Positions 15,383 to 26,667 of a DNA stretch of 64,000 nt are shown here, one piece after another; the first letter of the stretch is position 1, and the number at the start of each line of letters is the position of its first letter. Location of the stretch: contig MEPB01000058.1 in the NCBI GenBank assembly GCA_001769385.1, positions 1 to 64,000 of the forward strand, written 5' to 3'. Position numbers and translations under genes: made by a program. This DNA comes from Bacteroidetes bacterium RIFCSPLOWO2_12_FULL_35_15 (GTDB lineage: Bacteria; Bacteroidota; Bacteroidia; 2-12-FULL-35-15). The notes beneath the pieces were generated by a model. It was not told the DNA's origin and did no database searches. It saw nothing but the letters and a program-made list of their open reading frames with translations.

Positions 15383-15431
15383 TTTGTAAAATGTTTAATT
15401 GATATTTTTTTGTTTGATTTTTAAAGGGACA

Positions 15432-15439
15432 CAAAAGTA
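15432..15439 (-). promoter_or_regulatory. Putative -7 box of tig
   Basis: On the minus strand this reads TACTTTTG, matching the Bacteroidota -7 consensus TAnnTTTG, about 50 bp upstream of the tig start. No convincing -33 TTTG was found at the usual distance. Confidence 0.5.
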
Positions 15440-15503
15440 CAAAAAAATTTGGATGTTCAGGCTTCCTTTCCAGGCAAAAATTCCCATAAATTCTAATTTT
15501 TAT

Positions 15504-15791
15504 TTAGCAGCCCTTAACTAATTTCCCGTCTTTATAATATTGGGTTTTAACGACTTTCCCGTGTACAATAGTAAGCCATTTCCCTTGTTTAAGGTTATTT
15601 GCATCTGTAAAATTAGTTGTATCTCCGGGAGCAACGTAATCATCTACTACATTTCTGGTCCATTTAGCCATCGAATCGGCAGCATAATCTTTAGGAGCAT
15701 TATTGCTCTCAGGTAGATCATTGGTTTCGGAAGGATTGTTTTGACAAGCCAAAAGAAACAAAAATAGCGAAGAGAATATTATTTTTTTCAT
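15504..15791 (-). CDS. Small lipoprotein with MORN-like tail
   Basis: A 95-residue predicted lipoprotein. The signal peptide MKKIIFSSLFLFLLAC ends in a lipobox LLAC (Cys16), followed by an acidic, Asn/Glu-rich linker. The C-terminal part (LKQGKWLTI, TQYYKDGKLVKG) looks like a single MORN-type strand pair. Membrane anchoring is well supported and the function is unknown. It lies upstream of tig on the same strand, ~120 bp away, and probably has its own promoter. Its 5' side abuts the repeat element that begins at 15801. Confidence 0.75.
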   Translation of the reverse strand: MKKIIFSSLFLFLLACQNNPSETNDLPESNNAPKDYAADSMAKWTRNVVDDYVAPGDTTNFTDANNLKQGKWLTIVHGKVVKTQYYKDGKLVKGC

Positions 15792-15800
15792 ATACTAAGC

Positions 15801-16144
15801 CGCTGTTTAAATTTTAATAAAAATATTTGTTATGCACGCGGGTTGTCAGTTCGAGTAGCCTTCCTTTTTTAGGAAGGTGTATCGAGAATGTGCGAAGATT
15901 TATTGTTAATAAAACTTCTCGATACGCTCCTTTTTTCGCAACGAAGTGACCGCGCACTTTTACGTATAATAATTTTAAATTTTAATAAAAGAACCTGATT
16001 CCGGATATTTTTACCATTCTAATTTCGACCAGAGTGAGAAATCTCAATAAAATTAAGCTAAAAATGAGGTTTCTCCCGGAGTTTATCATGAGCAAACCGA
16101 AGGAGTCGAAACATATAATACATTTTGAGTACATTTAAACAGCG
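15801..16144. repeat. Second MITE-like element and nested repeats
   Basis: CGCTGTTTAAAT (15801-15812) is the exact reverse complement of ATTTAAACAGCG (16133-16144). The left 190 bp is an inverted relative of 10718-10924. The right part has a GAGAAATCTC...GAGGTTTCTC stretch (16030-16075), typical of another short intergenic repeat. The true right end could be near 15995 instead. No gene is seen from 15792 to 17318. Confidence 0.6.
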
Positions 16145-16437
16145 TCTAAAATTAAAAAAATGATTAGTAATTCCTACCTATTTTGAATTTCATGAAAAGC
16201 CCGCTTTTGTTCAGATTCTTTCCTGCTTTTGATGGCAAAGCATAGTTTTGTGCAAAAGAGAATTGTATCTGGTGCATCTGAGTGTTGTCAACGTTTTTCT
16301 TTTTTGAAAGTTTATTCATAGGAGAACATGTGAACAACTTTTGAGCTTGATCAAAATGAACAGAGGGATTTTCAGTTCATTTTTTTCTTTCCTTCTTTTC
16401 TCTTGACAGAAAAGAAGCAATTCTTCAGAGAAGAACA

Positions 16438-16572
16438 AGAACAAACGATTCCTCCACTCCTCTCTCCATTTTTATGAATGTCTAAGCACTCGGCTAAAGC
16501 TCGTGCCAAGACCTTCAATAAAAACCGAGTTCACCGTAACACGACATCGCGTTTGTTCAATCCTTGCGCACG
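16438..16572 (+). repeat. Dispersed repeat core, copy C
   Basis: Same order of blocks as the copies at 5253, 11274 and 25820. The inner stem here is GCAC/GTGC around TCGGCTAAAGCTC, where copies A and B have GTGCG/CGCAC. Two stem pairs have changed on both sides. Flanking it, AGAATTG-ATCTGGTGCATC-type sequence occurs twice (near 16259 and 16602). Confidence 0.8.
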
Positions 16573-16956
16573 GTTTCATAAATAGAATTTTGCATAAAAT
16601 AGAATTGCATCTGGTGCATCTGAGTGTTGTCAGTTCGAGTGTTTTTCTTTTTTGAAAAACTTATCGAGAACGTGTGAGGGTTTTAATATTAGGATTTGTA
16701 ATGATCGAATTAATGTGCTTATTAACATTTTTTTTCTTTTTTTCTTTTTGCTTGATCAAAAAGAAAGAGGGCAAATGTACAATCAACTTATTGAACAATC
16801 GATCTTATTTATTTAAACGGGAAATGTAATTGTTTTTGTGGAAAATGCTTCCCGTACATTTTAATCAGCCAGCTGCATAAAGGAGCGAAACCAGTAAAGA
16901 TCAGCTAAGTGTAATGAAAAATGCCGTTACTCTGTTTTCTATTTGTCCGGGCTTAG

Positions 16957-17019
16957 GGGGGTAATATTACCCCCTCTAGCGGGTAATATTACCCGTGCTA
17001 AAAAGGGGTAAAATTACCC
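16957..17019. promoter_or_regulatory. Three spaced GGGTAATATTACCC palindromes
   Basis: Perfect palindromes of 18 bp (16957-16974) and 16 bp (16980-16995) and a third imperfect one, GGGTAAAATTACCC (17006-17019), have centres 22 and 25 bp apart. Regular spacing near two helical turns suggests an operator array. The nearest gene on the right starts at 17319; no good -7 box is seen next to the array. It could equally be a repeat cluster. Confidence 0.5.
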
Positions 17020-17318
17020 GTTTTAATTGTATTGAAAAATGTGTAGGTTTGGCTCGTCATTTTTATACATATAAACAAAGCAGTTTACAAGGGTTTAAAA
17101 AAATTGTATGACATTTTATAATTAATGTTTTCAACAGAATAAGAAATGAAGCCCTTTGAATTGGCTTTGTGGTTGGAATTAGTTTATTATTGTGGAAATG
17201 GTGAATGAGGAGGGGAATTGGTTTGGGGAAATTTAAAAATAAGGAGAAAGTAGGGACGTATACAGATGCTAGTGGCAAGAATAAAGACAGACAATCAGAA
17301 TAACAAACAGGGATTCAT

Positions 17319-18239
17319 ATGGCAAAATTTTTAACAGGGAACGAACTAAACTCGGAATTAGAAAAATTATTTGAAAGCGCGGACGAGCAAATAATTCTCA
17401 TCTCTCCTTACATCAAACTTCACGACCGTTATGCTTCGACATTGCGGACAAAAAAGGACAATCCTAAAATGAAGATTATTATTGTATTTGGCAAAAATGA
17501 AGAAGACCTTTCAAGAAGTATGAAGCAAGAAGATTTTAATTTCTTCAAAGAATTTCCAAACATTGAAATTCGTTACGAAAAAAGACTTCACGCCAAATAT
17601 TATTCAAGCGAATCTTCGGCAATCTTAACTTCAATGAATTTATATAACTTCTCCCAAGACAATAATATTGAAGCTGGGGTAATGACCAAAGCGACTTTGC
17701 TTGGAAGTCTTGCCAGTAATCTTATGACCTTTGTTACGGACGAGGACGGCTTTGACACAACTGCTCAGGCTTACTTTTTAAGAGTTATAGAGCAATCTGA
17801 ATTACTATTTAAAAAAGAGCCAGAATATGAAAGCATAATGCTTGGTTTATCAAAAAAATATAAATCATCAAGAACTGAAGTGGACAAGCTCACAGATTTT
17901 TTTGCAAACAAACCTAAGTATGAAAATAATAGTAGAAAAGACAATTCAGAAAAGAAACCAATAGTTAATGAAATTAAAACTGAGGAAAAAACAGAAACTG
18001 TAGGTGCGAATAAAATTTCCTCTGAAACAAAATTCCTTTCAACGACTGCTTTGTCAAAAGAAGTTAGACTTTCAAGCAAAGACCTGTTTGGTAAGTTTGA
18101 AAAACTCAATTGGATAGAAAGAAAAAATGATGACTGGGTATTAACGGCTTCAGGAAAAAATAAAGGGGCGCAGACAAAAAAGGGACAGTACGGAGAATAT
18201 ATTGCATGGCCCGATACAATAGTTAACGAAATAAAATAA
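17319..18239 (+). CDS. PLD-like domain protein with winged-helix-like C-terminus
   Basis: A 306-residue protein without a signal peptide. Residues 1-125 look like a single phospholipase-D/nuclease-type domain: IILISPYIKLHD, IIIVFGKNEEDL, then RLHAKYY with His91 and Lys93 and TSMNLYNFS with Ser105/Asn107. The HxKx4D signature carries Glu98 in place of Asp. A charged, Glu/Lys-rich linker (about 200-235) leads to a C-terminal domain with FLSTTALSKEV, WIERKNDDWVLTASG and YGEYIAWPD, which resembles a DNA-binding winged helix ending in a WP motif. PLD-like plus DNA-binding domains suggest a nuclease, possibly defence-related. It is 340 bp upstream of the reverse transcriptase. Confidence 0.75.
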   Translation: MAKFLTGNELNSELEKLFESADEQIILISPYIKLHDRYASTLRTKKDNPKMKIIIVFGKNEEDLSRSMKQEDFNFFKEFPNIEIRYEKRLHAKYYSSESSAILTSMNLYNFSQDNNIEAGVMTKATLLGSLASNLMTFVTDEDGFDTTAQAYFLRVIEQSELLFKKEPEYESIMLGLSKKYKSSRTEVDKLTDFFANKPKYENNSRKDNSEKKPIVNEIKTEEKTETVGANKISSETKFLSTTALSKEVRLSSKDLFGKFEKLNWIERKNDDWVLTASGKNKGAQTKKGQYGEYIAWPDTIVNEIK

Positions 18240-18301
18240 AGCAGAAAATATTATAGATGCAAACATTACCTTTTTTTTCTTTGAGGTGTTATTTCACCAG
18301 C

Positions 18302-18344
18302 AATAAATGATTGAAATACTTTGTTGGTGATATCACCAACAAAG
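18302..18344. repeat. Direct-repeat plus 26-bp perfect palindrome, left copy
   Basis: AATAAATGATTGAAATA (18302-18318) is followed by a 26-bp perfect palindrome (18319-18344) centred on GGTGATATCACC. The same 17-bp word followed by a near-identical palindrome recurs at 22645-22686. The two copies bracket 4.3 kb holding the RT, nuclease, RAYT remnant and outer-membrane gene. Confidence 0.75.
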
Positions 18345-18361
18345 GCTAACAGAAAAATAAT

Positions 18362-18484
18362 ATGTCATCACTGAAAGATCATTGTAAAGAAACGAAAAGA
18401 CTTTTGAGAAAAGTTCCAAAAGCAAATATTTCAAAATGGCTTTTGGAAGAAGGTTATTATCCTGAGCAGGTGCCCAGCAGCTAA
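18362..18484 (+). pseudogene. Truncated 40-residue N-terminal gene fragment
   Basis: An ATG at 18362 opens a 40-codon frame (MSSLKDHCKETKRLLRKVPK, then KWLLEEGYYPEQ) with protein-like composition that stops in CCCAGCAGCTAA. The text KxxKVPKANxSKWLLEEGYYPEQ looks to me like the beginning of a larger protein. I have a faint memory of such an N-terminus on some bacterial reverse transcriptases, which I cannot verify. The abrupt end coincides with the start of a cassette-junction-like sequence, so I read it as the 5' stub of a gene cut by recombination rather than a working small protein. Confidence 0.5.
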
Positions 18485-18579
18485 CATAAAATATACAATA
18501 CTTTAGCCGACACGTTCAAAAGTCTAACCCAGGCATAACATATTTGACAGTTATGTGCAACTATATTTAAAAAAACACG
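18470..18579. other. Cassette-junction-like sequence before RT
   Basis: GCCCAGCAGCTAACATAAAA at the end of the truncated frame and AGTTATGTGCAAC near 18548 form imperfect inverted ends. CATAACATATTTGACAGTTATG (18534-18555) is an inverted repeat inside. The layout (CTAAC on the left, GTTATG on the right, ~80 bp, no ORF) recalls the attC-like junctions between gene cassettes, but conserved attC boxes could not be defined by eye. Confidence 0.3.
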
Positions 18580-20193
18580 ATGGAAACAGACCACATACGA
18601 CTTGCAATTGAAAATATTGCTAAATACGGTGATACAGATATTTTCCCTTTCCCCATTGAGAAACTTGTTTTCTTTGATAAGAAAGAAGAAACTATTGCTC
18701 TTATAAAAAAAATTGATAGTGATTTTCATAATTACTTAACTCTTCATCCACCAGTAAATATTAACTCTTCTATACCATTAGGATATACAGGATTTCGATG
18801 GGCTACTCAAATTGACCCAATATGGAACGCCTATTTCTTAGCCGCAGTAATTAGCATAGCTAAAGAAATCGAAAGTACTAGAATTGGCAAAGAAGAAAAC
18901 ATAATTTATTCTTACAGATTTTCCCCAAACTTAGAAAACCCTATGCTTTTTGACACAACGTATAATTGGTTAAAATTTCAAAAAGACTCACTAGAATTCG
19001 TTAAAACAAATCTTGAATACAATTTTGTGGTTATATGTGATATAGCCGATTTTTATAATAGAATAAACCATCACCCTTTAGAAAATTCACTAAATAGGTT
19101 ACCTGTTTATAATGATATTCCCAAAAAAATAAAAAAACTTATTCATAAATTTTCTAACACAAAGTCATATGGACTACCAATTGGTGGGGAAGCGGCTCGT
19201 ATTCTCGCAGAGTTAGTTTTAAATAATACAGACAGACATCTTTATAACCAAGGAATTAAATTTAAACGCTTTGTTGATGATTTACATATTTTCTGTAAAA
19301 CTTTGCAAGAAGCTCATTCCGCTTTAAATTTCCTGTCAATAAAACTAATGCGAAATGAAGGATTAAATTTGCAAAAACATAAAACGCAAATACAATCTAG
19401 AATCGAATTTGATAAGCTTGTTTCATCAAGAATCAATGCCGATAGCGATAACGAAAAAGAGAAACATAGAGCTAAATTCATGTCTTTGCCAATTAATTAT
19501 GACCCTTATTCAGACAGTGCAGAAGATGATTATAGAAGAATAAAAAAAGAACTAGAAGAATTTGATATTGTCGGTTTACTGAATGATGAATTGAGAAAAG
19601 TCAGAATCCACCAACAATTTGGAACGAGATTAATTAAAACATTTGATGTTCTTGAACCAGAAGTTATTTCAAATGCTTTTAATTCAATAATTCCTAAGTA
19701 CGAAATTTTATATCCAATATTCCCGACTATAATGAAGTCTGCATATAAACACCATGCAAAACTTGAAAATAATACGAAAACTAAACTCCATTTGTCATTG
19801 AGGAAACTCGTATCTGAGAATTCTTATATAGTTCAGTCTGAAATAAACATGACATACTTGCTTAGGGTTCTTGGATTAGAGCATAGTCTTTTAAATGAAG
19901 AAACAGTAATTAAAGCGTATCATTTATTCGCAGACAGTATCTTAATAAAGAGTATTGTAATCCAAATCATGACTAGATGGAAAGCATACCACTGGTTGAC
20001 TGACAAAAAGGACACATTCTCTATAATGAACAAATGGGAAAGAAGAATGTTTATCGTAGCTGCGAATTTTATAGGAGATGAAGGTGAACATTGGTTAAAT
20101 TATAATAAAAAGGAATTTTCAGACTTAGAGAAATTAATAATGAATTGGTCGAAAGAAAAATCTTCAATTACTAATTGGGAATTACCGTTATGA
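18580..20193 (+). CDS. Reverse transcriptase of the UG/Abi (defence) type
   Basis: A 537-residue reverse transcriptase domain protein. Motif A is VICDIADFY with Asp154, motif B is GLPIGGEAARILAE at about 198-211, and the catalytic motif C is FVDD at 231-234; motif D-like KHKTQI follows at about 266-271. The LPxGxxAxRILAE form of motif B is typical of the unknown-group/Abi RTs that act in phage defence, and unlike group II intron RTs. No maturase, X or HNH domain is apparent, and no retron msr/msd was recognised beside it. About 270 residues follow the palm and look all-helical, as in other defence RTs. The stop codon overlaps the next ATG (ATGA), so it is translationally coupled to the nuclease. 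The exact RT group is not determined. Confidence 0.85.
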   Translation: METDHIRLAIENIAKYGDTDIFPFPIEKLVFFDKKEETIALIKKIDSDFHNYLTLHPPVNINSSIPLGYTGFRWATQIDPIWNAYFLAAVISIAKEIESTRIGKEENIIYSYRFSPNLENPMLFDTTYNWLKFQKDSLEFVKTNLEYNFVVICDIADFYNRINHHPLENSLNRLPVYNDIPKKIKKLIHKFSNTKSYGLPIGGEAARILAELVLNNTDRHLYNQGIKFKRFVDDLHIFCKTLQEAHSALNFLSIKLMRNEGLNLQKHKTQIQSRIEFDKLVSSRINADSDNEKEKHRAKFMSLPINYDPYSDSAEDDYRRIKKELEEFDIVGLLNDELRKVRIHQQFGTRLIKTFDVLEPEVISNAFNSIIPKYEILYPIFPTIMKSAYKHHAKLENNTKTKLHLSLRKLVSENSYIVQSEINMTYLLRVLGLEHSLLNEETVIKAYHLFADSILIKSIVIQIMTRWKAYHWLTDKKDTFSIMNKWERRMFIVAANFIGDEGEHWLNYNKKEFSDLEKLIMNWSKEKSSITNWELPL

Positions 20194-20912
20194 TTTCAGA
20201 AAAAACCTTCATCAGATACTATTCAAGTTTTTGGGAACAATTACTCCCAGGTATCGACAATTATATCCGTATGGTAAACTCTGGATTAAAGGAACGTTTG
20301 TTTACTCCAATAATTACAGATGATATTCCTAAAAGAAGAGCATTGATTAATGGGATGGCATTTAAACTTTTTCATAAATGTCATAACAAAGAAATAATTT
20401 TTGAAAATATTGCAAGTCTGGCCCCGGATTCTCCAGAGATTAATGAAATTCAAGATACGGTATTAAGAGACATGGCGAATCTAGACAATTCCGACACCTT
20501 TAAAGAAAAATTGTCATTGAACGAATTTATTATTTTACAAAATCTAACTCATCGCCTATATAAATATTTTTCAAAAAAAAAAGATGTAATAATTTATCCG
20601 AAATTTCAAGGATGCGGATTGCTTTTTAATTGTTCGGGAGATGCGATATATGAGAATAATTTAGTTGAAATTAAAGCTGGCAATACAAATTTTGGAAGGC
20701 ATGATTTCTATCAATTGTTTACTTATGGTGCTTTGAACTATGTTTCATATGACATAAACGAAATAAGTAGATTTGAATTATTTAATATTCGAACCGGTTT
20801 ATGTTGGAATGAGAATATTGAAAATGTATGTGAAATTATAGCAGGCACATCGTCAGCAGAAATTTATTCAGAAATAATAAATTATGTTTCAAATAATTAT
20901 AGGTCAATATGA
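20190..20912 (+). CDS. PD-(D/E)XK nuclease partner of the RT (McrC-like core)
   Basis: A 240-residue protein starting at the ATG that overlaps the RT stop codon (ATGA); a start five codons upstream inside the RT is less likely. The C-terminal half has the PD-(D/E)XK pattern: possible motif I Glu112 (NEFIILQNL), motif II Asp151 (SGDAIY), motif III Glu160-x-Lys162 (VEIKAG) and motif IV Gln175 with Tyr179 (HDFYQLFTYG). The last resembles the McrC and Cas4/RecB style Q-x3-Y. The N-terminal ~100 residues are helical and unassigned. Coupling to the RT suggests one system in which the RT product or a phage trigger controls the nuclease; that is an inference. No DNA-binding domain is obvious. Confidence 0.75.
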   Translation: MISEKTFIRYYSSFWEQLLPGIDNYIRMVNSGLKERLFTPIITDDIPKRRALINGMAFKLFHKCHNKEIIFENIASLAPDSPEINEIQDTVLRDMANLDNSDTFKEKLSLNEFIILQNLTHRLYKYFSKKKDVIIYPKFQGCGLLFNCSGDAIYENNLVEIKAGNTNFGRHDFYQLFTYGALNYVSYDINEISRFELFNIRTGLCWNENIENVCEIIAGTSSAEIYSEIINYVSNNYRSI

Positions 20913-20931
20913 CAAAAATAATCCCCCGTTA

Positions 20932-20974
20932 GGCGGAGCGTCCCGCTCCGCCTTCCTTAACCGGCATCTTGCCG
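20932..20974 (+). repeat. REP, left flank of RAYT remnant
   Basis: Stem GGCGGAGCG/CGCTCCGCC with loop TCC, then the second hairpin CGGCATCTTGCCG. It lies 60 bp upstream of the transposase remnant and is inverted relative to the copy at 21656-21696. Confidence 0.88.
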
Positions 20975-21032
20975 TATATGTAAAACAGCAGCAATATTTA
21001 TCTTACAAAAAATGTTTCAAAAGAATTAAAAA

Positions 21033-21598
21033 ATGTCAACAGGTTATCAAATTAAAGAGCAAGACAAATTATATTTTTTAACACTTCAAGTAACAGAATG
21101 GGTGGATATATTTTCACGACAAAAATATCGGGATATTATCATTGAAAATCTATCCTACTGTCAAAAGAATAAAGGGCTTGAAATATATGCCTGGGTAATC
21201 ATGAGTAATCATATTCATTTATTGGTTAAAAGCGAAAAAGAAGACTAAGCAATATATTGAGGGATTTTAAAAGTTACACCAGTAAAAAAATATTAGATGA
21301 AATTGATTCGTGTAATGAAAGCAGAAAAGAGTGGATGCTAAAACTATTTAAAGATTCAGCATTCAAGCATAAGCGTAATTCAGAATATCAATTTTGGACA
21401 CATGAAAATCATGCGGAGCACATTTTTTCAAATACGTTTATCGAACAAAAAATAGATTATATTCATAACAATCCTGTAAGAGCGGGAATAGTTGAAAAAC
21501 CTGAAGAATACAGATATTCAAGCGCAAAAAATTATGCAGGAGAAAAAGGATTATTGCAAATTGAAACAATTATGCGACAATGGAAAACTTATAAATGA
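21033..21598 (+). pseudogene. REP-associated tyrosine transposase (RAYT), frameshifted
   Basis: The first part (21033-21248, 71 codons) carries the HUH motif IMSNHIHLLV. It stops right after KSEKED. The second part (from ~21249 to 21598) continues in another frame with RDFKSYTSKKIL, FIEQKIDYIHNNPVRAGIV and YSSAKNYAG, all family hallmarks. Adding one T next to 21246 would restore KSEKEDLSNILRDFKSY, so a single-base deletion is the simplest cause. The spot is not an obvious slippery heptamer. Y1-type transposases of this family act on flanking REP hairpins, and inverted REPs lie on both sides here. Length and layout otherwise fit a complete ~189-residue protein. Confidence 0.88.
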
Positions 21599-21655
21599 AT
21601 TCTTTACTGATGTTCATTTGGAATAAAAGTGATTTTGCTTCGAATGAACGTAATT

Positions 21656-21696
21656 CGGCAAGATGCCGGTTAAAGAAATCGGAGCGGGACGCTCCG
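21656..21696 (-). repeat. REP, right flank of RAYT remnant, inverted
   Basis: CGGCAAGATGCCG is followed by a spacer and CGGAGCG/CGCTCCG (21680-21696). It is the reverse-order counterpart of 20932-20974, giving the REP-RAYT-inverted REP arrangement. Confidence 0.88.
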
Positions 21697-21788
21697 CTTA
21701 ACGGTGCGCAAAAAAAGCGGACAACAACTTATAACATAAACAACAATTACAAAAAAAATACATACAATAAATAAACAAAAACAAAACA

Positions 21789-22649
21789 ATGAAACCAACT
21801 CTACTCTTATTAACAACAGCTATTACAGGAACAATGATGATGACTATACAAAGCGCAAACGCTCAGGGAGCTTATATAAATGCAGGCGTAGGCTATGGTA
21901 TGAAAGCCGCTTCACAAACAATGCAATACACCGAGTCGGTTTCATCTGATACTATACTTACCTTTACAAGCGTGCATGGTTCACTTGGAAAAGGCTTAAA
22001 TTATGGCGGTGCATTGGGTTATATGTTTAATAAACATGTAGGAGCCGAAATAGGATTTAACTATTTAAAGGGCAGTCAAATTAAATCCAGCTACTCAGAT
22101 TATACCTTCATTTATACCCAGACGCAAACTATCACAACCCAGGCCACTATGCTACGCATTATTCCTACACTTGTTATTGCAATAGGAGATGGAGTGTTTC
22201 GTCCGTATGCCAAAGTTGGATTAGTAATGGGATTGATGGGCAAAACAACGGATAAATACTCCAGTCATGTAGGAGGTTATAGTTATGAAGAAACCTGGAA
22301 ATCCAGTGGTGGCATACCATTTGGTTTTTCATCGGCTCTTGGCTTAACTATGGAAGGTGATTTCATGGCAGTCTTTGCTGAGTTCGCAATGATCAATCAA
22401 TCATGGGCACCAAAAAAAAGTGTGATGACAGAATCAACCTATAATGGAACTGATCAATTGCCTTTACTGACAACCTATGAAAAAGAAACCAATTATGTTG
22501 ATAGTTATTCAGTAAGTCAAAACCCCGATCTAAGTTCACCTAATCAACAAACAAAACAGTATTTACCGATGAGTAGTTTTGGATTTAATGTAGGCTTACG
22601 TTTTAATTTAGGGAACTATTTGAAGAGTAAAAAAGCAGTAGCGAAATAA
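21789..22649 (+). CDS. Outer-membrane beta-barrel protein
   Basis: A 286-residue protein with a signal peptide (MKPTLLLLTTAI, ending SANAQ). The mature part has alternating beta-strands, glycine/aromatic rich, such as YINAGVGYGMKAA, GGALGYMFNKHVGAEIGFNY, FRPYAKVGLVMG, FAEFAMINQSW and a final SFGFNVGLRFNLG, typical of small porin-like barrels of 8-12 strands. It is probably a general outer-membrane protein of unknown ligand. The stop codon lies inside the 17-bp word of the right-hand direct repeat, which suggests that this boundary is recombinational. It is monocistronic. Confidence 0.8.
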   Translation: MKPTLLLLTTAITGTMMMTIQSANAQGAYINAGVGYGMKAASQTMQYTESVSSDTILTFTSVHGSLGKGLNYGGALGYMFNKHVGAEIGFNYLKGSQIKSSYSDYTFIYTQTQTITTQATMLRIIPTLVIAIGDGVFRPYAKVGLVMGLMGKTTDKYSSHVGGYSYEETWKSSGGIPFGFSSALGLTMEGDFMAVFAEFAMINQSWAPKKSVMTESTYNGTDQLPLLTTYEKETNYVDSYSVSQNPDLSSPNQQTKQYLPMSSFGFNVGLRFNLGNYLKSKKAVAK

Positions 22650-22686
22650 ATGATTGAAATAGGTTGTTGGTGATAACACCAACAAC
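22645..22686. repeat. Direct-repeat plus palindrome, right copy
   Basis: AATAAATGATTGAAATA (22645-22661) is identical to 18302-18318 and is followed by GTTGTTGGTGAT/AACACCAACAAC (22663-22686, one mismatched pair). It overlaps the stop codon of the outer-membrane gene. Confidence 0.75.
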
Positions 22687-22982
22687 TGCATAATGAATAT
22701 ATTGTTACAAACAATGAAGAAGGAACAATTATTACCTATTGGCTGGCTGATGGTAAAATTTACTTTCTTCGAAAAGTTATTGTGCCAGTTGAACCGCAAA
22801 GACAAATCATCTATTTATTTTTTATAAATACCTGATATAAAAAATATGTTCGCGATGCTTTCAATACAAACTGATTTAAGCGGTAAAAAACAGGTCGTTT
22901 GGAAGTTACCAAAATCACTAAAAAAGTAATTGATCTTACTCAATTTGAAATACCAAAAGGGTATAATAAATTTGAAAAATAA
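22686..22982 (+). pseudogene. Decayed DUF4412-like gene, 3' part
   Basis: Three coding-like pieces lie in series: EYIVTNNEEGTIITYWLADG (from ~22695), then LSIQTDLSGKKQVVW (from 22858) in a second frame, then EVTKITKKVIDLTQFEIPKG, ending NKFEK at 22982 in a third reading. Inserting one G near 22902 joins the last two. The end FEIPKGYNKF is typical of DUF4412-type envelope proteins. There is no start codon and there are several shifts, so I call a dead 3' remnant; its 5' part ends at the palindrome. Confidence 0.6.
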
Positions 22983-22997
22983 AATTATCCAAAAAAT

Positions 22998-23036
22998 AAA
23001 AATGCTCTGTAAATGATATTTACAGGGCATTTTTAT
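22998..23036. terminator. Hairpin terminator after the decayed gene
   Basis: AAAAATGCTCTGTAAA and TTTACAGGGCATTTTT pair around TGATA with one G-T pair, followed by ATTTTAAAT. It can act in both directions. The rest of 23037-23262 shows no gene and should carry the promoter of the next gene. Confidence 0.75.
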
Positions 23037-23262
23037 TTTAAATAGGCTCGAAATATAGATTCAAAAAATATCCAGAGCTGAGCGATCGATTAAAATCTTT
23101 TCGCATAGAGCCATTTTACATGAGGGTTTACATTTTTTTTCTTGCCGAATATCATTGTACAATTATTTTCAAAATATAATATTTGTGTTGTGATGGAATG
23201 GAATTAAATATTTTTTTGCAGGTAAAAAAAACCTAAAAAAATCAAATTTAATCGCCATTTGA

Positions 23263-24921
23263 ATGACAACAACTAGAAAATACAATCTTCTCTTTTTTTT
23301 AATTCTACTTTTTCAACTTTCCCTTTTTAGCCAAACATCCTATCAGGAATATCCTAATATCATTATAAATAGTAAAACAGAAAGTGTAATTTCTGTTTCA
23401 AACCAGGGAAACGCGTATTTGGAAATACCTCCCTGGCTAAAACCGGGAGGATGGAGATCCTATTATTTTACCAGCCATTTCACAAAAGTATTTTCAATAC
23501 CACTGTCCCTGGCGGATGAAAACTTAACCAACCTGAATCTTTCAGAATCATTTGAACCAACGATTGTATCGTGCCCTTTGAATTGGTGGAATACAAATCA
23601 TCCTCCAACTTCTAATACAGATCTTCAATTCAGGAGAAATTACCAGGGAATTTTTAGCGCTCATTCTTTTTATAATCAATATAAAGGGGACATCGTAATT
23701 GCTTATTCCCATGGGGAAAATAAAAATGCAATAGAAGGCCAGTATCAATATCAAAATACAGTATGGCCAACTTTTGTATTAGACCCGAATAATCCAAATA
23801 CATATTCAGGATACAGTAATGGCACGTATTACGACTGTTGGGAAAGTTATTTTGGTTTTGTAAATATGCAATGGATAGAAAATACTTCTTCAACACAATG
23901 GGCACAAAAATATTTTTGGGAAGAAGGGCCCATTGCATGGCCTTCAAATGGCTATATTACAAAAGGAAATCAAAAAGCCTCGTATGGTCTCAGGCATCCA
24001 TCTTCTATATTAAATAGTAATGATAATTATATATACATATATTATCTTGATACAAAAGAAGCCGCTATTATGGCCGAAGAAGGAAGAAGTTCGGGCATAA
24101 AATTAGTAAGAGTAAAAAAAGAAAATGCCGTATTCTCCACCATGTATGAAGTTTTTTATAACGGAAACTGGTATCCCTCTTTACCTCAAGGCTATACCAA
24201 AGAAAAAATGCTTGATTTCGTAAATGTTAAAGGCCCAAAATCCTCCGTTGTTGTTGGAGGTCCAAATACTATCCGGTTCACGGTTGCAAAAATACTGGAT
24301 GATGATTACTATTTAGGAGTGGAAGAGTATATAGATCCGATAACGAATCAAACCATTACAAATCTTCGTCTATCAAGAGATCTGATAAATTGGTCTTCTC
24401 CTAAAGCTATTTTAAGCAAAACTTCATCATGGGGAAGTTCTAAATATCATTACCCAATTTTCCTTGACCATGCAGGTTGGACAAATACTGAAATTTTTAA
24501 GAATAATTTTTATATCCTTGGGACAAAATCCGGGAAAACAGATAAAATTTACCGGATGAAGCTAAATATAAGTTTAACTGATCAAGTTGTTCAGCCTTTT
24601 CCAATTAGTGGAAAAGATTCTACAATTGAGGACGAGTCTTGCAAGTTCCAGGAAATGAAAGATGAAGACATTCTTTTTTCAAAAGAAGATAATTATCTGT
24701 ATGTAACATTACCGACTAATTCCTGCCAGTTAAAAAAAGAGGTATTCGTTTATGATATACAAGGTAAACTTATAAAAATTGAAATATTTGATGGGGAAAG
24801 CAACGCTTTCAAAATTGATGTTTCTGAAATAAAAGCTTTTGGAATATTTGTATTAGTTATTCAAACGGGAGATAATATACTAGCTAAAAAATTTATAGTT
24901 AATTATAATAATTACCACTAA
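23263..24921 (+). CDS. Secreted protein with T9SS sorting domain
   Basis: A 552-residue exported protein. It has a signal peptide (about residues 1-24, ending LFSQ), a long central region rich in aromatic strands (SYYFTSHFTKVF, DIVIAYSHGENKN, YGLRHPSSIL, DHAGWTNTEIF) and a C-terminal type A sorting domain of about 75 residues (VFVYDIQGKLIKIEIF, GIFVLVIQTGDN, KKFIVNYNN). The sorting tail predicts export by the type IX system and surface anchoring or release. The repeated open-strand pattern with LVRVKKEN and LRLSRDLINWSSP recalls five-bladed-propeller glycosidase-like folds, but no catalytic carboxylates could be assigned. It is monocistronic. Confidence 0.8.
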   Translation: MTTTRKYNLLFFLILLFQLSLFSQTSYQEYPNIIINSKTESVISVSNQGNAYLEIPPWLKPGGWRSYYFTSHFTKVFSIPLSLADENLTNLNLSESFEPTIVSCPLNWWNTNHPPTSNTDLQFRRNYQGIFSAHSFYNQYKGDIVIAYSHGENKNAIEGQYQYQNTVWPTFVLDPNNPNTYSGYSNGTYYDCWESYFGFVNMQWIENTSSTQWAQKYFWEEGPIAWPSNGYITKGNQKASYGLRHPSSILNSNDNYIYIYYLDTKEAAIMAEEGRSSGIKLVRVKKENAVFSTMYEVFYNGNWYPSLPQGYTKEKMLDFVNVKGPKSSVVVGGPNTIRFTVAKILDDDYYLGVEEYIDPITNQTITNLRLSRDLINWSSPKAILSKTSSWGSSKYHYPIFLDHAGWTNTEIFKNNFYILGTKSGKTDKIYRMKLNISLTDQVVQPFPISGKDSTIEDESCKFQEMKDEDILFSKEDNYLYVTLPTNSCQLKKEVFVYDIQGKLIKIEIFDGESNAFKIDVSEIKAFGIFVLVIQTGDNILAKKFIVNYNNYH

Positions 24922-25080
24922 AACTTAATCGTAAATTTCAGGAAATTGAATCAAAGTTTAAACTACATATACACTTTTTGTTGTTTTGCTTATGCAAAGA
25001 AATAAAAAAAGGAACGCGGATGACGCTGATTAAGCATATTAACGCAGATAAAATAAAACCATTTTTTATCATCTAAAATA

Positions 25081-25118
25081 AAAAAGTCCCGCTCTATTAC
25101 TAGAGCGGGACTTTTTTT
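25081..25118 (-). terminator. Terminator of the cold-shock gene
   Basis: AGTCCCGCTCTA pairs with TAGAGCGGGACT around TTAC, flanked by AAAAA and TTTTTTT, so it may work in both directions. It lies 20-60 bp after the cold-shock gene stop codon. Confidence 0.88.
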
Positions 25119-25140
25119 GGTAAATTATATTTTAATATAA

Positions 25141-25332
25141 TTATGCTAATCTTACGTTTACAGCATTTAAACCTTTTTTGCCTTCTTGAACTTCAAAAAG
25201 TACTTCGTCATTCTGACGAATTTCTTCTTTCAATCCTGACACGTGAACAAAGAATTCTTCATTTGTGTCATTAGCTTTAATGAATCCAAATCCTTTTGTT
25301 TCATTAAAAAACTTTACAGTTCCATTTTTCAT
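25141..25332 (-). CDS. Cold-shock domain protein (CspA family)
   Basis: A 63-residue single cold-shock domain. I use the ATG at 25332 because MKNGTVKFFNETKGFGFI is the universal N-terminus; an upstream in-frame ATG would add 11 unlikely residues and lies next to the predicted transcription start. RNP1 (KGFGFI) and RNP2 (FFVHVSGL) are both present. It binds single-stranded RNA/DNA as an RNA chaperone. A perfect TATCTTTG -7 box lies 33 bp upstream, and a strong terminator follows, so it is a monocistronic unit. Confidence 0.95.
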   Translation of the reverse strand: MKNGTVKFFNETKGFGFIKANDTNEEFFVHVSGLKEEIRQNDEVLFEVQEGKKGLNAVNVRLA

Positions 25333-25364
25333 TTTAATAATAATGTTTTGATTAATAATTAACA

Positions 25365-25372
25365 CAAAGATA
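25365..25372 (-). promoter_or_regulatory. -7 box of the cold-shock gene
   Basis: On the minus strand this reads TATCTTTG, a full match to TAnnTTTG. It predicts a transcription start near 25358 and a 5' leader of ~26 nt. Confidence 0.65.
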
Positions 25373-25662
25373 CACTAATTAAACCGAAATGCTTGAAATA
25401 ATTACATTTTAATAAAACATTGTCCTGAATTAGCTTTGTTGATTGGGCTTTTACGAAACAAAAAAAATGATATTTTTTGTTTTTCCAGGGATGAAAGGAC
25501 AGGCCCGGGATAAATTTTTCAGGAAAATTATCACTAAAAAAAGTGTTTCTTTCGAAACTTAACGTTCAGCCCCGCACTTTTTGTGGACGTCAGCCGCATC
25601 GCAGCTAATTTCTTTGTGCAAAATTTAATCTGGTAGGAGCGGGTAAGGCTTGGATCAAACGC

Positions 25663-25755
25663 CCTTCGACTTCGCTCAGGTCAGGCTTCTCGTGAAAAAT
25701 TCCAATAAAAAAGAGGAACCTTTGCAAGTTCCTCTTTTTGTGCGGGCGAAGGGAC
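25663..25755. repeat. Detached copy of tRNA-Leu 3' end plus terminator
   Basis: It contains CGACTTCGCTCAGG, CTTCTCGTGAAAAATTCC, a hairpin GAGGAACC/GGTTCCTC-type stem and TGTGCGGGCGAAGGGA, the same block that occurs three times in series at 26163-26445. The stretch 25756-26162 separates it from the tandem array and holds a dispersed repeat. Confidence 0.8.
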
Positions 25756-25819
25756 ATCCTATAACTGTTCGAAACCTTTTTTTTTCTTCTTTTCTCTTAA
25801 AAGAAAAGAAGCAAAAGTT

Positions 25820-25957
25820 CAAGAACAAACGATTGCTCCCCTCATCTCTCCATTTTTATGAATGTCTAAGCACTCGGCTAAAGCTCGTGCCAAGACCTTC
25901 AAAAAAAATAGAGTTCACCGCAACACGACATCGCGTTTGTTCAATCCTTGCGCGCGA
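25820..25957 (+). repeat. Dispersed repeat core, copy D
   Basis: AAGAACAAACGATTGCTCCC starts a copy with the GCAC/GTGC inner stem, as in copy C. It is followed by TTTGTTTATGCTTTGCAGAA, which also occurs beside copy B at 11069. The interval 25373-26429 has no credible gene; frames across it translate repeats. Confidence 0.8.
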
Positions 25958-26162
25958 ACTTTGTTTATGCTTTGCAGAAGGCTTTATTGATTGCATAAAT
26001 TGAATTAAAGCAATGCACTGAATTAGTATAGGTGCTGTTGTGGTGGCTTTTCTTGCCTTCACACATACTCGCTCAAATACCTAGCAGGTATTTGCCGCTT
26101 TCTTTTTGCGGCAGAAAAAGAAAGTAAAAGAATAAAATGTTTCGAACAGTAAAGGGGACATC

Positions 26163-26429
26163 CTTCGACTTCGCTCAGGACAGGCTTCTCGTGAAAAATT
26201 CCAATAAAAAAAGAGGAACCTTTGCAAGTTCCTCTTTTAGTGCGGGCGAAGGGAATCCTTCGGCTTCGCTCAGGTCAGGCTTCTCGTGAAAAATTCCAAT
26301 AAAAAAGAGGAACCTTTGCAAGTTCCTCTTTTTGTGCGGGCGAAGGGACATCCTTCGACTTCGCTCAGGACAGGCTTCTCGTGAAAAATTCCAATAAAAA
26401 AGAGGAACCTTTTCAAGTTCCTCTTTTTG
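26163..26429. repeat. Tandem copies of tRNA-Leu 3' end and terminator
   Basis: The block boundary GTGCGGGCGAAGGGA starts at 26240, 26334 and, as the genuine tRNA end, 26429, a period of 94-95 bp. Each copy has the same hairpin (GAGGAACCTTTGCAAGTTCC, with TTTTC in the copy next to the tRNA) and the same CTTCGACTTCGCTCAGGACA segment. Read on the minus strand, each is the last ~16 nt of tRNA-Leu followed by a terminator and ~50 bp of flank. Confidence 0.88.
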
Positions 26430-26511
26430 TGCGGGCGAAGGGACTCGAACCCCCACGCCTTGCGGCACCAGATCCTAAGTCTGGCGCGGCTGCCAATTAC
26501 GCCACGCCCGC
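26430..26511 (-). tRNA. tRNA-Leu (anticodon UAG)
   Basis: On the minus strand it starts GCGGGCGTGGCGTAATTGGC. The acceptor stem GCGGGCG pairs with CGCCCGC, the anticodon arm is CCAGA-CTTAGGA-TCTGG (UAG, reading CUA), there is a long class II variable arm (GCCGCAAGGC), and the T-arm contains GGTTCGAGTCC. The discriminator is A; CCA is not fully encoded. A hairpin terminator follows directly, and the 3' end is duplicated downstream (see the tandem array). Confidence 0.95.
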
Positions 26512-26667
26512 ATGTGTTTTTAAATTGGAAGGCAAAGATATATTTTTTTCAAATGCAAAAAAAATTCTTCTTGCATTTAAAAATAAATTAGTCGAAAAAG
26601 TGTTTAAAACTTCATCCCTTTGATGCATCATAAATTAGTACTTTTGAAACCTGTAAATTGTTTTTCA

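Follow-up and report, generated by a model that had tools for sequence, protein, structure and literature searches.

Does the overlapping pair of a reverse transcriptase (RT) gene and a nuclease gene in Bacteroidetes bacterium RIFCSPLOWO2_12_FULL_35_15 represent a new combination or a known system, and how might its two enzymes work together? The pair lies in a 64,000-nucleotide window (contig MEPB01000058.1, positions 1 to 64,000), the whole stretch of DNA analysed here, with both genes on the forward strand. The RT gene (18580..20193) encodes 537 aa, and the nuclease gene (20190..20912), which begins with an ATG at 20190 and whose stop ends at 20912, encodes 240 aa. Read from the sequence, the stop codon of the RT gene and the start codon of the nuclease gene overlap in an ATGA (20190..20193), as a first-pass annotation had claimed. 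The residues that it listed are all where it placed them: FVDD at 231-234 and LPIG at 199-202 of the RT, and D151, E160-x-K162 and Q175-x3-Y179 in the nuclease.

Profile searches place the pair in a named system, DRT type 8, of which it is, by these matches, a member. The RT matches the PADLOC Drt8 family over residues 2-527 (520.7 bits, E=1.4e-156), with RT_UG21 as the second-best family at 130.5 bits, and also matches Pfam RVT_1 (5.6e-16). The 240-residue protein, for which a profile search had been advised, matches PADLOC RTasPDDEXK over residues 1-238 (212 bits, E=1.8e-63). Given these three E-values, the observation of an RT with this nuclease is not due to chance. The two PADLOC matches bear out the first-pass proposal of a two-gene system in which a UG/Abi-type defence RT is coupled to a PD-(D/E)XK nuclease. 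The accompanying suggestion that the pair fits no named DRT type and may be a new pairing falls, because PADLOC already lists both proteins as DRT components. DRT8 is characterized by a PD-(D/E)XK domain (PMC12596737) and is said to confer phage resistance (PMC13314766, PMC13213688). The window holds a Drt8-family RT, an associated PD-(D/E)XK protein and two intact active sites; both genes match their family models full-length, in the gene order and with the overlap seen in 89 relatives, and no feature was found that distinguishes the window pair from DRT8. It is a divergent member, with an RT that is 79% identical to a Carboxylicivirga copy and ~47% or less identical to the others. The pair is an intact, ordinary-looking DRT8 member, already known as a system rather than a novel combination. 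PDB searches returned no solved DRT8 RT or DRT8 nuclease among their matches. Clustering with group II intron RTs, which the first-pass annotation held to be incompatible with its reading, is excluded by score (TIGR04416, 61.7 bits, far under the cut-off of 300).

The two genes have been inherited together and have diverged in step. An RT alignment query, with search patterns derived from nuclease-associated RTs, found 147 relatives in bacterial and archaeal genome contigs, of which 80 were kept; viral contigs added 7 more loci, and there were plasmid matches as well. A single-protein query of the genome contigs found no relatives. Conservation was assessed over 89 RT-nuclease pairs from several phyla. 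In every relative except the more distant Drt8-like RTs, a nuclease ORF directly follows the RT, overlapping or abutting it, and the RT frame itself is broken in a few loci (L049, L052, L075). Homologues of the second gene are therefore coupled to RTs elsewhere, as had been expected of a genuine pair, and they keep the D/ExK residues: D151 (20640..20642), E160-x-K162 (20667..20675) and the QxxxY motif Q175-x3-Y179 (20712..20726) are each present in 89/89 relatives. On the RT side, the motif A aspartate D154 (19039..19041) and the catalytic D233 and D234 of the motif C FVDD (19270..19281) are likewise each found in 89/89, while position 232 varies among V, A and S. Distances among the RTs and among the nucleases correlate (rho 0.81; permuted maximum 0.15). 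No third conserved gene was found; every neighbour cluster is confined to 6 or fewer of the 81 loci.

This conservation bears on the reading in which the nuclease restricts phage DNA directly and the RT is a non-catalytic sensor, scaffold or antitoxin. The overlapping two-gene layout is typical of toxin-antitoxin and restriction pairs, yet a mere scaffold would not need the catalytic aspartates that all 89 RTs retain, and no modification enzyme is conserved alongside; such a division of labour seems very improbable.

The Drt8 profile reaches beyond the nuclease-bearing clade. Among 396 genomes of the phylum, a search with the Drt8 model found 7 strong RTs, 4 of them with a nuclease. In the tree, one branch (SH-aLRT 98) separates the sampled nuclease-free Drt8-like RTs from the others, a split that is indicative only because the branches are long, so the model is broader than the clade in which the nuclease occurs. 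One Drt8-family RT without a PD-(D/E)XK gene (L136:5236-7682, reverse strand) is followed by a Hypoth_Ymh / PD-Lambda-3_B protein resembling HEPN, and two other loci (L012, L013) have convergent neighbours carrying an R-N-N-x-F-H stretch; effector swapping may have occurred across the wider Drt8 family. Another Drt8-like RT (L011:5968-9653) is preceded by a HerA-like gene and followed directly by a retron RT-DUF3800 (type VII-A1) gene. On a Comamonas plasmid (L145:4040-5657), a shortened RT, annotated with 300 aa, lies just downstream of an IS3-family transposase, and an overlapping 241-aa gene occupies the nuclease position after it. The same class and genus also has proteins of ~240-350 aa (L104-L111) whose PD-(D/E)XK core is weakly related and also resembles PDC-S61; of these, L104-L108 have no adjoining RT, and the group is possibly a separate nuclease family.

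The predicted structure of the RT indicates how it might make DNA. In the AlphaFold2 model (pLDDT 93.6), an N-terminal GDTDIFPFP motif is followed by the RT domain and an all-helical, HEAT-like C-terminal domain (approximately residues 314-528). The best Foldseek matches are UG15/DRT4, DRT6, Abi-P2, AbiA and AbiK, over ~470-640 alignment columns, and the best profile match in the PDB is 7r08 (Abi-P2). All five top folds are defence RTs with a helical domain. As modelled, the layout of the RT is that of class-1 UG/Abi enzymes, an RT domain joined to an all-helical C-terminus, and the C-terminal helical HEAT-like domain of that class is present in both the model and its fold matches. AbiK, AbiA and Abi-P2 have been assigned to class 1, for which a HEAT-like helical domain and untemplated, protein-primed DNA synthesis are typical (PMC13174585, PMC12632851, PMC13275509). 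The nearest solved folds, DRT4/UG15 and DRT6, differ from DRT8 in gene content: DRT4 is a single RT and DRT6 is an RT homolog of DRT4 (PMC13314766), whereas in the RT clade of DRT8 the nuclease is always alongside.

A class-1 fold argues against a templated alternative, in which the RT would copy a noncoding RNA in the manner of the class-2 systems DRT2, DRT9 and DRT10 and the cDNA would control the nuclease as in retrons. Retrons do combine an RT, a noncoding RNA and an effector, and class-2 DRTs use a noncoding RNA (PMC12632851). In the flanks of the DRT8 pair, however, no conserved RNA was found. The upstream and downstream flanks of the window pair show no similarity to those of its relative at 79% RT identity (L017; the alignment scored 10, and shuffled sequences reached up to 18), and two copies with 93% RT identity (L085, L092) share only 33 bp upstream. 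Rfam gave sub-threshold matches only, with no family near its curated score. Longer flank similarity is found in the Citrobacter/satellite group (L027, L030, L098-L101) and between L008 and L094, which are closely related loci in common mobile-element surroundings. A conserved noncoding RNA in cis is rejected on these grounds; a template RNA may instead act in trans or lie inside the coding region. Synthesis from a noncoding RNA is, overall, quite unlikely. The idea that GTTATGTGCAA (18550) marks a repeated or integron-like boundary was also rejected: the genome contains AGTTATGTGCAA a single time, and a looser pattern is no commoner in the window than by chance.

If synthesis is protein-primed, the best candidate for the primer is Tyr310. 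The stretch D308-P309-Y310-S311 (19501..19512) lies in the flexible linker between the RT and helical domains and is the lowest-pLDDT part of the RT model. D, P and Y are conserved in 100% of relatives and S in 97%, while other linker positions are mostly below 60%. AbiA primes from Tyr298/Tyr303 in a disordered loop between its RT and helical domains (PMC11077055), and an invariant DPYS in an otherwise variable linker that corresponds to this loop suggests Y310 as a putative priming site. AbiA and DRT8 have in common an RT, a helical domain, a nuclease-type effector and a conserved tyrosine in the RT-helical linker; they differ in that the AbiA effector is a C-terminal HEPN domain, whereas that of DRT8 is a PD-(D/E)XK protein encoded by a separate gene, and in that a primer role for Y310 is only a candidate one. 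Y310 could instead be conserved for folding or nuclease binding. Y112, Y159 and Y318 of the RT are also invariant or nearly so, and the more distant nuclease-free Drt8-like RTs do not strictly keep the DPYS motif.

The nuclease looks like a member of the RecB/Cas4/Dna2/MGME1 lineage, judging from its fold matches and its invariant QxxxY. Its AlphaFold2 model (pLDDT 95.1) has a helical N-terminal half and, in the C-terminal half, what appears to be a RecB/Cas4-like catalytic core. Foldseek ranks ACE1 (an Argonaute-associated Cas4-family protein), Dna2, AdnAB, MGME1 and Cas4 as the best folds, with weak scores: only ACE1 falls under an E of 0.001, and TM-scores are low. The QhxxY motif is named for RecB-like nucleases (PMC4625639). 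The earlier description of the nuclease as McrC-like does not hold, as Pfam gave no match at E<=1 and McrC is absent from the 50 best PDB fold matches. No cysteine column is conserved beyond 48/89 relatives, and with no conserved cysteine set the protein lacks an Fe-S cluster of the Cas4/AddB/Dna2 type. MGME1/RecB-type nucleases likewise have no four-cysteine Fe-S cluster. With Cas4, Dna2, MGME1 and RecB-type enzymes the DRT8 nuclease has in common its fold and three motifs (D, ExK and QxxxY); it differs in having no conserved cysteine set and no helicase and in being coupled to an RT.

What such a nuclease does beside an RT can be read in two main ways. The leading rival to a gated nuclease, rather unlikely in our estimate, is that the DNA product of the RT is itself antiviral, a mode of action proposed for DRT4 and DRT9. 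The nuclease would then be a processing or safety enzyme and would trim or release this DNA until a phage inhibits it. RecB/Cas4/MGME1-like nucleases, to which the fold matches point, work on DNA ends and single strands. The RT, moreover, resembles those of DRT4 and DRT6, which work without a nuclease partner (PMC13314766). Against this, no RT of the clade lacks the nuclease, a pattern that suits an effector equally well or better, and in AbiA and DRT1 the extra domain is either required for defence or the effector under regulation.

An even chance is given to the preferred reading, in which this DRT8 operon would be a two-gene abortive-infection system whose nuclease is gated by DNA that the RT makes. 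Such gating, already part of the first-pass proposal, is plausible and is suggested by analogy with DRT1 and retrons. In DRT1, an RT-nitrilase, a defence RT is tied to an enzymatic effector under protein-primed DNA control: the active sites of RT and effector are both needed, DNA adducts keep the effector dormant, and DNA synthesis activates it (PMC13275509). Unlike DRT8, DRT1 belongs to class 3, is a single polypeptide and has a nitrilase in place of a nuclease. In the gated-nuclease reading, the RT would make DNA without a nucleic-acid template, priming from a hydroxyl residue of its own, for which Tyr310 is the best candidate. Either the resulting DNA adduct or the complex that it forms with the RT would restrain or load the translationally coupled nuclease. 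If a phage then interfered with DNA synthesis or with the adduct, the nuclease would be free to degrade DNA, and this degradation would halt phage replication through abortive infection. It is conceivable, if doubtful, that DRT8 works like a nuclease retron without the RNA: untemplated DNA bound covalently to Tyr310 would restrain the RecB/Cas4-type nuclease, which would be unleashed when a phage attacks this DNA or the dNTP supply. Because reviews call the mechanism of DRT8 unresolved (PMC13314766, PMC13213688), the predictions gained for it are useful: class-1 untemplated synthesis, a named candidate priming residue and a RecB/Cas4-type effector. The interest of the locus lies in these testable predictions more than in novelty.

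The genomic setting suggests that DRT8 is mobile. In the tree, the window RT groups with the one Carboxylicivirga copy and next with Pseudomonadota, not with most Bacteroidota copies. The pair sits in a variable interval (15383-26619) between the trigger factor gene on one side and tRNA-Leu and the gene at 26620 on the other; congeners (L139-L141) keep both flanks with unrelated genes between them and no DRT8. Other copies are cargo of P4-like satellites; one of them (L099) adjoins Psu, Ogr/Delta and AlpA. In E. coli, 105 of 5,426 complete genomes carry the L099 pair (104 at >=99% identity, 1 at 80-90%), with genes annotated as an RNA-directed DNA polymerase and a hypothetical protein, so that E. 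coli offers an experimental system for a pair of this type. Such mobility is usual among defence systems. As to a location in defence islands, 122 neighbours, counted without a background control, gave scattered matches to R-M and RT families, and no PADLOC family had more than 2 members among them.

Two further features flank the window pair. Upstream of the RT, a gene at 17319-18239 (forward strand) encodes a PLD-like domain protein (Pfam PLDc_2) with a sub-cut-off resemblance to DISARM DrmC and a C-terminal part like PDC-S69; considered as a third component of the system, it was rejected, as it is not a conserved DRT8 neighbour. Downstream, ORF fragments in two frames (~21033-21598, forward strand) end in HNNPVRAGIV...YSSAKNY; a 113-aa piece of them has no Pfam match, and the whole looks like a frameshifted remnant of a REP-associated (Y1-type) transposase.
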